Shown in pieces: positions 1,747 through 58,719 of a stretch of DNA of 64,000 nt. Below the pieces are notes generated by a model. The model saw only the letters and a program-made list of their open reading frames with translations, did not search any database and was not told the DNA's origin. Source of the DNA: Pelagomonas calceolata (Eukaryota > Sar > Pelagophyceae > Pelagomonadales > Pelagomonadaceae); assembly GCA_918797485.1 (NCBI GenBank), contig CAKKNE010000001.1, positions 5,456,001 through 5,520,000 on the forward strand, given 5' to 3'. The first letter of the stretch is position 1, and each line of letters starts with the position of its first letter. Position numbers and translations under genes: made by a program.

Positions 1747-2311
1747 CTTGTTTTAACCTGCGGGGCGGTTTGCGTCGCTGCCAGCTTGCGTAGGGGGGGG
1801 GCGGCACGCCAACGACAGCGATGCAAGGGAAACCGGCGCGTCGGCGGTCCCGCGCCCGTCGCATATCAGCTTTTAGAAATTGGCTATTTTTGGCCACCAC
1901 GTAGTACCAACGTGCTTTTTTGGCGGCGGATCTCGCGCGCTGGCGTCCGCGCTGTGGCGCAGTGCTCTGGCTGCAACGGCTGTGTTATGCGACGCTGCTG
2001 CACGCGGTTAATTAGGTCGAGACTAATATCGATGACATGGAGGCCGGAGAGGACCTCCTGGGCCGAGGCTTCGAGACGCCTCTCTTTTCGCGATGTATGT
2101 CTCCCTATCGTTCCGCCGACGCTGCTCGCCCGTTTACAGGTCCGAATCCCGAGCTTGAAAACCCGTGATTTAGTAAAAGAGCCAAAACACGCGCACGAGG
2201 GCAAAGACCTCTGCCTCAGCTGGCCACGCGGCTCAGAAAGCATCACCAGCAATAGCGCAACAGCTCCAGCCCAAACTCTAGCCCAGAAGCCCGCCCGCGC
2301 CGCGCCACGCC
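1747..2311. other. Divergent intergenic region, aldolase/thioredoxin reductase
   Basis: It holds the 5' ends of both flanking genes. A run of nine G lies at about 1793-1801. The GCTAGCGGC/TAAGACACTAG element found in many other promoters of this window is absent. No further gene is supported. Confidence 0.5.
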
Positions 2312-3415
2312 ATGGCTCTCCCAATCCAAGCAAGGCGGCGGCGCCCCCCCAGCCGCCTCGCGTTGTTATTCGCTGTATGTAAATGCTCCGATGCCCTCAC
2401 GCTGTCGAGGCGACCACTTCGCCAAACACGACGGACGCAACTGAGGATGATGGACGAGGTCGAGTGCGACGTGGCTATTGTCGGCGGCGGCCCCGCGGGC
2501 TGCTGCTGCGCGCTGTATACAGCTAGAGCGGACCACCGGACGGTGATTCTGGACAAGAACCCGAGCGTGGGTGCCCTGGCCATCACGTCGCACATCGCGA
2601 ATTACCCCGGCGTCGACAAGACGATGGGTGGGGATGAACTGTTAGACAAGATGCGCGAGCAGGCCGTGAGCTATGGTACGGACTACCGGAGGGCTCAAGT
2701 GTTTATGGTCGACGTCGAAGGGGAACAAAAAGTGGTATACACGCCTGATGTGACCGTGAAAGCCAAAACGTTGGTTCTGGCGACCGGGGCTCTGGGCCAC
2801 GAGCCGTCCTTCGCCGGCGAGGCGGAATTTCTGGGGCGGGGCGTCAGCTACTGCGCGACCTGCGACGCCGCCTTCTACAGAGATGCCGAAGTGTGTGTGG
2901 TCGGTTCAGGAAATGAGGCGATCGAGGAGGCCGAGTACTTGACAAAATTCGCGTCGACGGTGCACTGGGTGACGCAGTTCGACCCGCGCTGGGACGAGGT
3001 GCCGCATGCTGTCGAGTTAAGAGATCATCCGAACGTCAAGCACTGGTCCGCGACTAGATTAATGGAGGTCGTGGGAGATGATGCGGGCGTCAACGGTGTC
3101 GTGCTCAAGCGGAAAGGTGGCGAAGAGCAAGAATCATTAGCTGTGGAGGGCTGCTTCATCTACGTCGCCGGCTCGAAACCGATCACGGACTTTTTGTCGG
3201 AGAACGCGGTGGAGCTGCAGGACGACGGCGGCGTGGCCGTGAACGACGAGATGGAAACCAGTGTTCCTGGCGTGTTCGCCATCGGCGACATTAGAAATAC
3301 GCCCTTTAAACAAGTGGTGGTCGCGGCGGCGGACGGGTGCATCGCCGCGATGAGCATAGACAGGTTCCTCAAGGGGCGAAAGAAGGTCCGCGTGGACTGG
3401 GTCCACGATCTCTAG
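2312..3415 (+). CDS. NADPH thioredoxin reductase, low-molecular-weight type, probably plastid-targeted
   Basis: A 367-residue FAD/NAD(P)H disulfide reductase that passes electrons from NADPH through FAD and a Cys pair to thioredoxin. Seen: FAD-binding GGGPAG (about 58-63), active site CATC (Cys181 and Cys184), NADPH-binding VVGSGNEAIEEA (about 196-207), and the C-terminal GVFAIGDIRNTPFKQVVVAAADG FAD block. The catalytic body begins near residue 48. The preceding extension has a short hydrophobic run (LALLFAVC) and then DALTLSRRPLRQTRR, which fits a signal peptide followed by a transit stretch as in algae with secondary plastids. Targeting is inference; the enzyme family is clear. It is divergent from aldolase. 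Confidence 0.93.
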   Translation: MALPIQARRRRPPSRLALLFAVCKCSDALTLSRRPLRQTRRTQLRMMDEVECDVAIVGGGPAGCCCALYTARADHRTVILDKNPSVGALAITSHIANYPGVDKTMGGDELLDKMREQAVSYGTDYRRAQVFMVDVEGEQKVVYTPDVTVKAKTLVLATGALGHEPSFAGEAEFLGRGVSYCATCDAAFYRDAEVCVVGSGNEAIEEAEYLTKFASTVHWVTQFDPRWDEVPHAVELRDHPNVKHWSATRLMEVVGDDAGVNGVVLKRKGGEEQESLAVEGCFIYVAGSKPITDFLSENAVELQDDGGVAVNDEMETSVPGVFAIGDIRNTPFKQVVVAAADGCIAAMSIDRFLKGRKKVRVDWVHDL

Positions 3416-3659
3416 GTTTAAGAATTCGCTTCGGTCTTTGCTTTCTTTTGCTTTGCTTAGACCTAGGCCTGCGCAAGTCCTGAGCCAACGCCTCCCCGCA
3501 TGACCGCACCGTGACCGTGACGCCCACCTCTTTTTGTGGGTGCGTCGACGGCGTCCTCGAGGCCGCTCGCGCGCACGGGTCGCGTGACGCCGACGGCGTA
3601 CGGGGCACGCCATCGCCGCGGGAGACCAACTAATCACAGCATAGTATAAGTACCCCCTT

Positions 3660-4817
3660 CTAGGGCGGCGTCGACGCACCGGACAGGTCCAGCTTGTGCG
3701 CGTCCTTCATGACGATGTGCTCGATGCGCACGCACCCGAACAGCTCCTCGGGCAGCTCGGCCGGCGCCGCGCCCTGGAGCAGGAAGGCCATGTCTGCCAC
3801 GACGACCGACGCGCGCCCAATAGCCAACCCTATGGTATATTGGGCGATCTTCGACGAGGCAATGTTGCAGTCCGTCTCGAAGTAGTCTCCACCTTCAGGA
3901 CCGTAGTACAGGAGCTCGATCTTGTTCCCGAGCAATGTAGGCACCTCGCCCACCGCCTTCTTGACGACGAACGGCGCGTTGACGCACCGCGGAATGAGTT
4001 TAAAGGTGTTGTTGCGCCACTCGTGGAGTTGGTCGTTCGAGGAAAAGGTGCCTTTGCCCGTATTCACGCCAGCATTTGATGGAGAGGTCACGCGCTGGAA
4101 GAAGCGTTTCGATAACCTCGCAATAGGAGTATCTTCGTCGAACAGCTTCGATCGGTCGGCACATCCAAAGTACATGCAGAACGACTTGTAGGGCGGGCCC
4201 GGGACTTGCAGTTGAATCAACCACGTGAAGGGCTTCTTGTCCGGCTCGAGTAGACCGCTCTCCCGCCACAACTGCTCCATCCTGGCGCCTAAGTGGCGGC
4301 CCATGTGGTTTTCCGGCTGGTCCACATCGAATAGATCACAATCTAGCAAGTGGAAGAGGGGCTCGCCGCACTTTATTTTGACTCTATCAACTAAATAATT
4401 TGGACCGCGAACCACAAACGCCGACGCCTCCGGCGACCCGCACCAGTACGCGCCGTCCCTCAATAGTAGTCTTTTGGTGCGGGGGCACCGCACCGCTTTG
4501 CCCGCTAATGACGGGAGTTGCGCCGGCTTCCACCCTTCATCGTGTTCATCCGCAATGCCCGTCTCCTCGACCGACGGCACGGACGCCGTCCGCCTTCGAG
4601 ACATGGTCTTCGGGGCGACCCAGTCGTCGTCGTCGTGCGTCGGGCTCGCGGGTTCTCTATTAATAACGGACCGCGGCGGCGCGAGGACATACACTCTTCC
4701 AGCGAGGACGGCCCAGGTCAATAACACGACCAAGACGGCCGTCGCGCAGCGGCCCTCGGCCGTCGCGCAGAGGCCGATCGCGCCGTCGAGCGCCGCGGCG
4801 TCGAGGAGGAAGGACAT
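3660..4817 (-). CDS. EDR2 C-terminal (DUF1336) domain protein with one membrane anchor
   Basis: 385 residues. One hydrophobic segment (about 24-42, TAVLVVLLTWAVLAG) is followed by a polar linker and then a full EDR2-C domain from about 118 to the end. Seen: FVVRGPNYLVDRVKIK, HMGRHLGARM, the FKLIPR...VKKAVGEVPTLLG block, DCNIASSKIA, and VVVADMAFLLQG with ELPEELFGCVR. In plants this domain follows PH and START modules; in algae and oomycetes it often stands alone and may bind lipid. Here the anchor replaces PH/START. The lipid role is from family knowledge; no substrate can be read from the sequence. Confidence 0.88.
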   Translation of the reverse strand: MSFLLDAAALDGAIGLCATAEGRCATAVLVVLLTWAVLAGRVYVLAPPRSVINREPASPTHDDDDWVAPKTMSRRRTASVPSVEETGIADEHDEGWKPAQLPSLAGKAVRCPRTKRLLLRDGAYWCGSPEASAFVVRGPNYLVDRVKIKCGEPLFHLLDCDLFDVDQPENHMGRHLGARMEQLWRESGLLEPDKKPFTWLIQLQVPGPPYKSFCMYFGCADRSKLFDEDTPIARLSKRFFQRVTSPSNAGVNTGKGTFSSNDQLHEWRNNTFKLIPRCVNAPFVVKKAVGEVPTLLGNKIELLYYGPEGGDYFETDCNIASSKIAQYTIGLAIGRASVVVADMAFLLQGAAPAELPEELFGCVRIEHIVMKDAHKLDLSGASTPP

Positions 4818-5077: not shown

Positions 5078-5100
5078 GCTAGTGTCTTAGGCCGCTAGCA
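5078..5100 (-). promoter_or_regulatory. Shared promoter element, copy 1
   Basis: On the minus strand it reads GCTAGCGGC, C, TAAGACACTAGC. It lies between the EDR2-C gene (starts 4817, minus) and the SDR gene (starts 5267, plus, about 167 bp away). I see nothing else gene-like in 4818-5266. Confidence 0.6.
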
Positions 5101-14605: not shown

Positions 14606-14627
14606 GCTAGCGGCCGTAAGGCACTAG
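14606..14627 (+). promoter_or_regulatory. Shared promoter element, copy 2
   Basis: GCTAGCGGCC then GTAAGGCACTAG. It is 171 bp before the CIA2 start and 227 bp from the divergent EF-hand-like start. I see nothing else gene-like in 14379-14798. Confidence 0.6.
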
Positions 14628-17551: not shown

Positions 17552-17575
17552 GCTAGCGGACTGTAAGGCACTAGC
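17552..17575 (+). promoter_or_regulatory. Shared promoter element, copy 3
   Basis: GCTAGCGGAC, T, GTAAGGCACTAGC. It lies 141 bp upstream of the RING gene (minus) and 253 bp upstream of the sulfotransferase (plus). Confidence 0.6.
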
Positions 17576-26713: not shown

Positions 26714-26733
26714 CCTAGCGGTAAGACACTAGC
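26714..26733 (+). promoter_or_regulatory. Shared promoter element, copy 4
   Basis: CCTAGCG then GTAAGACACTAGC, a shortened form. It ends 157 bp before the U-box start. I see nothing else in 26476-26890 apart from a diverged CGCTAGCTCG...TTAGCGGC near 26857-26873. Confidence 0.55.
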
Positions 26734-36808: not shown

Positions 36809-36826
36809 CTAGTGTGTCACGCTAGC
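36809..36826 (-). promoter_or_regulatory. Shared promoter element, variant copy 5
   Basis: On the minus strand: GCTAGCG then TGACACACTAG. It is the same variant as the copies at 42734 and 55554, and 225 bp before the bestrophin start. Confidence 0.5.
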
Positions 36827-39237: not shown

Positions 39238-39266
39238 GCTAGCGGCCTGTACAGGTAAGACACTAG
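39238..39266 (+). promoter_or_regulatory. Shared promoter element, copy 6
   Basis: GCTAGCGGCC, a 6-nt insert TGTACA, then GGTAAGACACTAG. It is 115 bp before the next start, and a second CCTAGC follows at once. The rest of 38978-39381 shows no gene. Confidence 0.6.
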
Positions 39267-39381
39267 GCATCCCTAGCAAGTAGATCAGATTCTGCTGATC
39301 GATGTGCAGCCCGCGCCTCGCACAGAGCCGAATGACTCGCGCTTCCACCCGCAGTTGCTGCCCCACGCCTAGGAATGGACG

Positions 39382-42733: not shown

Positions 42734-42755
42734 GCTAGCGGCTGAGACACACTAG
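42734..42755 (+). promoter_or_regulatory. Shared promoter element, variant copy 7
   Basis: GCTAGCGGC then TGAGACACACTAG. It lies only 51 bp before the TPR-methyltransferase start and 245 bp from the divergent kinase start. No other gene is seen in 42683-43000. Confidence 0.55.
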
Positions 42756-50297: not shown

Positions 50298-50321
50298 GCT
50301 AGCGGCCAGTAAGACACTAGC
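50298..50321 (+). promoter_or_regulatory. Shared promoter element, copy 8
   Basis: GCTAGCGGCC, A, GTAAGACACTAGC. It lies between the divergent Sec22 start (235 bp) and the HEAT-protein start (155 bp). Nothing else gene-like is seen in 50063-50476. Confidence 0.65.
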
Positions 50322-55553: not shown

Positions 55554-55575
55554 GCTAGCGTCGCTGACACACTAG
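55554..55575 (+). promoter_or_regulatory. Shared promoter element, variant copy 9
   Basis: GCTAGCGTCGC then TGACACACTAG. It is 114 bp before the mitochondrial-type gene (minus) and 156 bp before the ATG at 55732 (plus). Confidence 0.55.
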
Positions 55576-57029: not shown

Positions 57030-57052
57030 CTAGTGTCTTACATGCCGCTAGC
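57030..57052 (-). promoter_or_regulatory. Shared promoter element, copy 10
   Basis: On the minus strand: GCTAGCGGC, AT, GTAAGACACTAG. It is 141 bp before the STI1-domain gene. The rest of 56891-57193 shows no gene. Confidence 0.65.
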
Positions 57053-58696: not shown

Positions 58697-58719
58697 GCTA
58701 GTACCTTACAGCCGCTAGC
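58697..58719 (-). promoter_or_regulatory. Shared promoter element, copy 11
   Basis: On the minus strand: GCTAGCGGCT then GTAAGGTACTAGC. It is 138 bp before the CS-domain start. Confidence 0.6.

Follow-up and report, generated by a model that had tools for sequence, protein, structure and literature searches.

The bipartite element and its copies

At positions 14607..14627 (+ strand), in a divergent gap whose start codons lie ~238 bp to the left and ~182 bp to the right, the window carries the copy under study of a bipartite sequence element (half-site spacing 2; score 38.2, 35.5 out of sample). The window is the whole stretch of DNA analysed, 64,000 nucleotides corresponding to C1:5456001-5520000 of the Pelagomonas calceolata genome, and the elements in it neighbour, among others, genes for a sulfotransferase, a U-box protein, a methyltransferase and an STI1-domain protein. 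The genome totals 32,445,274 bases in 8 contigs, with ~63-64% GC in the parts read; the published genome paper describes six nuclear contigs of 32.4 Mb in total and one contig each for the plastid and the mitochondrion, 63% GC, 16,667 genes and 0.45 intron per gene, and presents Pelagomonas as an ocean picoalga from a class with cosmopolitan, abundant members (PMC9481584).

An earlier note on this DNA had listed eleven copies, and all 11 coordinates indeed hold an element. According to our gene calls seven lie in divergent gaps, the number given in the note, four in tandem gaps, and none in coding sequence or convergent gaps, from which the note had also reported them absent. The remaining copies in divergent gaps are 5079..5098 (- strand, spacing 1; score 35.1, 33.4 out of sample), 17553..17574 (+, spacing 3; 38.2, 36.5), 26715..26732 (+, spacing -1; 36.6, 35.8), 42735..42755 (+, with a weaker right half; 21.7, 19.7), 50299..50320 (+, spacing 3; 37.5, 36.5) and the weakest element, 55555..55575 (+; 15.7, 13.6). 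The copies in tandem gaps are 36809..36825 (-, spacing -2, variant TGACACACTAG; 28.3, 24.4 out of sample), 39239..39266 (+, spacing 9, with a GGCATCC tail; 32.3, 30.1), 57030..57051 (-, spacing 3; 40.6, 39.3) and 58698..58718 (-, spacing 2; 35.9, 33.5). Exact GCTAGCGGC occurs in 7 of the 11, and the others have GCTAGCGGA (17552), CCTAGCGG (26714) and GCTAGCGT (36809, 55554). After some elements the usual CAAGC is replaced by GGCATCC(CTAG) or GGGATGC (39267-39275 in the window, NZGT01000013.1:2221 on, C2:1166588), as if a second small module could substitute for the usual tail.

A strict scan of the 264-kb sample, i.e. the window and C2:1000001-1200000 (two stretches only), detected 9 sites in the window, missing those at 42735..42755 and 55555..55575, and 37 in the 200 kb of contig 2, with none in the reversed and none in the complemented sequence. 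One of the 37, a poor match in coding sequence (C2:1075646), was removed before matrix training. A bipartite matrix allowing variable spacing of the half-sites identified 54 elements at the main threshold (score >=12), including the 11 of the window; the reversed sequence had none. The distribution of its scores is two-humped, with 58 matches at score 6 and still 51 at score 20; at score 10 there were 1 coding match and 2 reversed matches. Training and scanning with this matrix used one and the same 264 kb; the search was repeated out of sample. A matrix trained on the 36 sites of C2:1.0-1.2 Mb retrieved exactly the 11 window copies at score 12, with no match in the reversed window or in any of eight order-1 Markov shuffles of it; at score 10 a single match appeared in one of the eight shuffles, and at score 15 the weakest window site (55554) was lost. 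The reverse test, with the 9 window sites as the training set and C2 scanned, was noisier: 59 matches (2 convergent) and 16 reversed ones at score 10, 46 and 4 reversed at score 12, and 44 (1 outside gaps) and 1 reversed at score 15.

A genome-wide motif search, which the earlier note had proposed, gave 557 + 530 matches of its main pattern (1,087) versus 0 + 0 in the control read backwards. The pattern CTAGCGGN{1,9}TAAGRCACTAG matched 1,628 times versus 0, the form with the main spacing, allowing at most 3 mismatches, 2,360 times versus 3, and the 12-mer GTAAGACACTAG 2,364 times versus 1, all of these counts being possibly lower bounds. The last three pattern counts, scaled by their local catch (23, 31 and 28 matches per 54 elements), yield estimates of ~3,800, ~4,100 and ~4,600 copies, whereas plain scaling of the local density yields ~6,600; the two stretches sampled must then be rich in elements, or else the pattern counts are low. 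By extrapolation, the element marks some 38-46% of genes. In viral contigs CTAGCGGN{1,4}GTAAGACACTAG, the one exact form tried there, had no match.

Placement relative to genes

Genes were called with a home-made seven-state Viterbi model, so their boundaries are approximate, and the ends of the stretches were left out of the gap count. At score >=12, 35 of the 53 divergent gaps in the 264 kb hold 36 elements and 18 of the 72 tandem gaps (introns included) hold 18; none of the 54 convergent gaps and none of the coding segments (203,034 bp) hold any. At the density of divergent gaps 12.3 elements would be expected in convergent DNA (P-value 4e-6), and Fisher's test restricted to convergent gaps of 150 bp or more (25 gaps) gives a P-value of 4e-9. 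The even spread over coding, 3' and intergenic DNA that the earlier note had set against its own reading is thus not what this sample holds. Moreover, the top-ranked words of the divergent gaps, derived without a prior motif, turned out to be pieces of the element. Among the tandem gaps, an element is found in 15 of the 36 that look truly intergenic and in 3 of the 36 that are intron-like or unclear, and these three gaps may be misclassified. An introner or transposon origin, considered as one candidate, is not supported, the elements lying nearly always in start-containing gaps.

The distance to the start codon is regular, with a median of 205 bp and a 10th-90th percentile range of 123-293 bp (n=88, i.e. 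88 of 90 flanks, two having no ATG call); the elements of the 264 kb thus lie somewhat farther out than the about 50-260 bp given in the note. In tandem gaps the distance is similar (121-284 bp). Could the element be an insulator or chromatin boundary between neighbouring promoters, a role that M1BP sites can play in Drosophila? Its position near the middle of divergent gaps would fit, but in tandem gaps it also precedes single genes, at the similar distance just given, and it is found in none of the convergent gaps; we regard this function as quite improbable. A replication origin, or another site for a protein with a non-transcriptional role that happens to lie in open promoter DNA, would likewise be intergenic, free in orientation and present in thousands of copies; nevertheless, the steady distance to the start codon and the absence from the 54 convergent gaps tie the element to gene starts and make such a role highly improbable.

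In tandem gaps 9 elements point in the direction of the gene and 9 against it, in agreement with the occurrence of both orientations reported from the window. In this the element behaves unlike a core promoter element of the INR, TATA or FPR type, for which a fixed orientation toward the gene would be expected; 9 of these 18 elements point that way. Or perhaps the element acts in RNA, given that it contains GTAAG, which resembles a splice donor? This reading was set aside because both orientations occur, 9 to 9, and it appears extremely improbable. In divergent gaps the element points to the nearer start in 23 of 34 cases and to the farther one in 11 (P-value 0.058), a weak tendency that would be unexpected for a fully symmetric site.

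Two copies are present in only one of the 53 divergent gaps, whereas 9.2 such gaps would be expected with a separate copy for every promoter (P-value 0.0005; the expectation is built on the tandem rate of 15/36), and in the 30 single-element divergent gaps shorter than 700 bp the element lies near the middle (P-value 0.0009). One copy therefore appears to serve both divergent genes. The element is not universal, as 18 of the 53 divergent gaps and 21 of the 36 tandem intergenic gaps lack it. Another word, GGGCAGCC, is enriched in divergent gaps, at 0.87 per kb where they lack the element and 0.43 where they have it, compared with 0.07 in coding sequence and 0.1 in convergent gaps, and is a possible second promoter word. 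ACGCCATC, GCCATCGA and similar words occur in 22-23 of the 49 tandem gaps longer than 150 bp, versus ~2 expected, and are perhaps introner sequence; words of the ACGCCATC type, typical of tandem and intron gaps, do not belong to the element.

Pfam scans of 20 of the 72 eligible genes with an element gave matches at 1e-5 for 9, namely cyclic phosphodiesterase, TauD, phosducin, aldehyde dehydrogenase, ankyrin, SAP, RabGAP, NUDIX and VASt. For genes without an element (20 of 27 scanned) there were matches for 12, including fructose-bisphosphate aldolase, methionyl-tRNA synthetase and MA3. Codon GC3, used as a proxy of expression, does not differ between the 72 element genes and the 27 others (P-value 0.82). 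The element marks neither one obvious pathway nor housekeeping genes only, and the unrelated functions that the earlier note had remarked upon are borne out by these scans. If the element were instead the target of a conventional activator or repressor whose regulon is very large (for light, the cell cycle or nutrients) and which has no general part in opening chromatin, this would be consistent with the presence of the element in some promoters and not in all (35/53 divergent gaps), and with its absence from several very conserved genes, reflected in the 12/20 versus 9/20 Pfam matches of a small, unweighted sample. On the other hand, a regulon would have to comprise the extrapolated 38-46% of genes, with unrelated functions and equal GC3 in both sets; on balance we consider it unlikely, though it deserves to be kept in view.

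Anatomy, information and conservation in a wild relative

The consensus of the element is [GT]AGCTAGCG[GT]C NN GTAAGACACTAGCAA, with a variable spacer, and its outer parts form a dyad, GCTAGYGKC and the inverted GMCRCTAGC, in line with the near-palindrome described earlier. The spacer between CTAGCGG and GTAAG, previously given as 0-7 nt, actually varies between -2 and +9 nt, and 3 is strongly preferred (31 of the 54 elements; 2 in 9, 1 in 6, 4 in 4, and -2, -1 or 9 in the other 4), and the previously proposed extent was too short, the conserved unit spanning from [GT]AG before to CAA after. The edges are sharp, as the information falls to about zero outward of -4 on the left and of +18 on the right. 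Altogether the element carries 37.0 bits (12.9 in the left half-site and 24.0 in the right one), or ~35 bits after subtraction of the spacing uncertainty, a value somewhat inflated because site selection by the matrix is biased toward good sites. About 13.8-14 bits would suffice to find 4,100-4,600 sites in the genome, so the element holds ~2.5 times what is needed. According to the usual argument, Schneider's, such an excess points to more than one reader or to copies that are still to be randomised. A search for a reader protein, restricted to zf-C2H2, gave 5 scattered matches, 3 of them over the cut-off and none in an array, which does not favour a many-fingered reader, although its fingers may be divergent ones.

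Over the first 120 bp outward of the element GC is 55-60%, and apart from the innermost 20 bp A and T are about equally frequent; past ~160 bp GC is ~65% and T falls to ~14%, as would be expected of a transcribed leader. A-rich words cluster next to the element, and 26 of the 76 occurrences of AAAAA within 300 bp of it are in the first 25 bp. The observed/expected ratio of CpG dips to 0.78 at 140-160 bp outward, versus 1.04 and 1.26 in the adjoining bins (90 flanks), a dip that could reflect transcription starts, linker DNA or chance.

A search of a collection of prokaryotic genomes with the element pattern yielded 4 matches, where chance would give ~7.5 at even base composition. All four are in marine metagenome bins, in stretches that align to the P. 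calceolata genome, and we therefore read them as pelagophyte DNA in bacterial bins. NZGT01000041.1 is 82% identical to C6:477195-485026, NZGT01000013.1 is 83-94% identical to C6:2236569-2246679, and CAJWOS010000634.1 has 339 bases at 89% identity to the P. calceolata genome; from this range of 82-94% the three look like mis-binned pelagophyte DNA. In CAJWEZ010000013.1 the part at 2043-3615 is 90-96% identical to C1, the reading frames in the rest of the 77-kb contig look bacterial by eye, and the contig is probably a chimeric assembly. The three contigs that look mis-binned had been filed in Spirochaeta MED672 and a proteobacterium bin (marine bacterial MAGs). Relatives of one protein of the window, 13 in number, are all on contigs of at most 3.6 kb. 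NZGT01000013.1 also carries, at 299-455, a ~156-bp repeat with matches at 80-88% identity (40 of 271 candidates were scored), 39 of the 47 matches listed being spread over the P. calceolata genome; it is possibly an introner or another repeat family.

The matrix found five elements in NZGT01000041.1 and NZGT01000013.1, DNA of a wild relative, and all five have a counterpart in the matching P. calceolata gap, parts of these gaps aligning poorly. By itself this number is not strong evidence, because some two thirds of divergent gaps have an element anyway, and the pairs include weak members (NZGT01000013.1:7636 in the relative, score 18.6, and C6:2244499 in P. calceolata, 15.9). One pair shares the unusual variant CTAGCGT[TC]GCAAGACACTAG and another the GGCATCC tail, and the elements of CAJWOS010000634.1 and CAJWEZ010000013.1 are identical to their counterparts. 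The element at NZGT01000013.1:5353 is inverted with respect to C6:2239186, with 25 of 27 aligned positions identical and the flanks colinear, a configuration that fits inversion as well as loss and independent regain.

These features raise the question whether a tiny mobile or copied unit has spread and was later kept as promoter sites. Its case lies in the ~35 bits versus the 14 needed, the sharp edges, and the ortholog in which the 27-nt unit alone is inverted. Against it, no convincing target duplications, the signature of a tiny transposon that the earlier note had named, flank the 54 elements: at the best offset 4-mers match in 3 of the 54, versus a control maximum of 2 at any offset, and 5- and 6-mers in at most 1. 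Furthermore, only 3 pairs of flanks are similar at E < 0.01, one of them over 87 bp, the copies are confined to start-containing gaps, and the element is conserved while its flanks diverged. A mobile origin is accordingly improbable. A more far-reaching proposal takes the excess of information and the inverted unit between colinear flanks as hints that copies were moved or rewritten as units and not built base by base. In it, the extrapolated 38-46% of genes would be marked by one extraordinarily information-rich (~35-bit), dyad-like site that needs two cooperating proteins or one large DNA reader. We regard it as a rather doubtful proposal.

Proposed function and comparison with known systems

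The reading that we favour, and consider probable, is that the element is a bipartite site of the general regulatory factor type, which opens promoters shared by divergent genes. The earlier note's 'general promoter element or broad regulator site' agrees with the placement in the 264 kb, binding and promoter activity being putative. A sequence-specific protein that acts widely, or two proteins together, would bind the near-dyad element and, like a general regulatory factor, mark and open the promoter. In the middle of a divergent gap one bound site could serve both genes, and in a tandem gap it would serve the downstream gene. Helped by the A-rich flank, the factor may keep the stretch free of nucleosomes and so let transcription start further out on either side, with a presumed effect on expression. 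The ~35 bits, far above the 14 needed and more than in yeast factors of this type, speak against a general factor, as do the many gaps that lack the element and the weak tendency to point to the nearer start.

In the open-licence literature we found neither a promoter element for Pelagomonas nor a description of this motif, in agreement with the earlier note, which knew of none. An element at such a large share of promoters may be useful as bait in the search for its regulator, in guiding annotation and as a part for genetic tools. The mismatch between carried and needed information also opens to testing the basic question of how, and for what reason, long sites are kept nearly identical in a genome by the thousand.

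The site is of a known general kind, and its length and information are unusual. In budding yeast the sites of Reb1, Abf1 and Rap1 lie upstream of many unrelated genes, irrespective of orientation, often between divergent genes and with A-rich tracts. The algal element resembles them in the variety of genes, the free orientation, the divergent position and the A-rich tracts nearby; however, the yeast sites are much shorter, whereas the element has ~35 bits, two half-sites with variable spacing and a different sequence. Motif 1 of Drosophila, bound by M1BP, is also a promoter motif of many genes, and its sequence, TCACACTR, is superficially like the variant GACACACTAG; it is a shorter, single motif of an insect protein, and the likeness is probably due to chance. 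The RE1/NRSF and CTCF sites share with the element the length, the high information, the two modules and the tolerated variants of spacing, but they are not restricted to promoters and are read by many-fingered C2H2 proteins, unlike the element with its confinement to start-containing gaps. Closer to the alga, the oomycete motifs INR, FPR and DPEP are likewise recurrent stramenopile promoter elements upstream of many genes; they are located within ~50-100 nt of the start codon and favour the forward direction, with a forward:reverse ratio of 5.9 for INR+FPR (PMC3599244), whereas the algal element lies ~205 bp out with a tandem orientation of 9:9. The same paper mentions unnamed motifs at 75-300 nt upstream of the transcription start that show no orientation bias, and it is these that the algal element resembles in its placement (PMC3599244).
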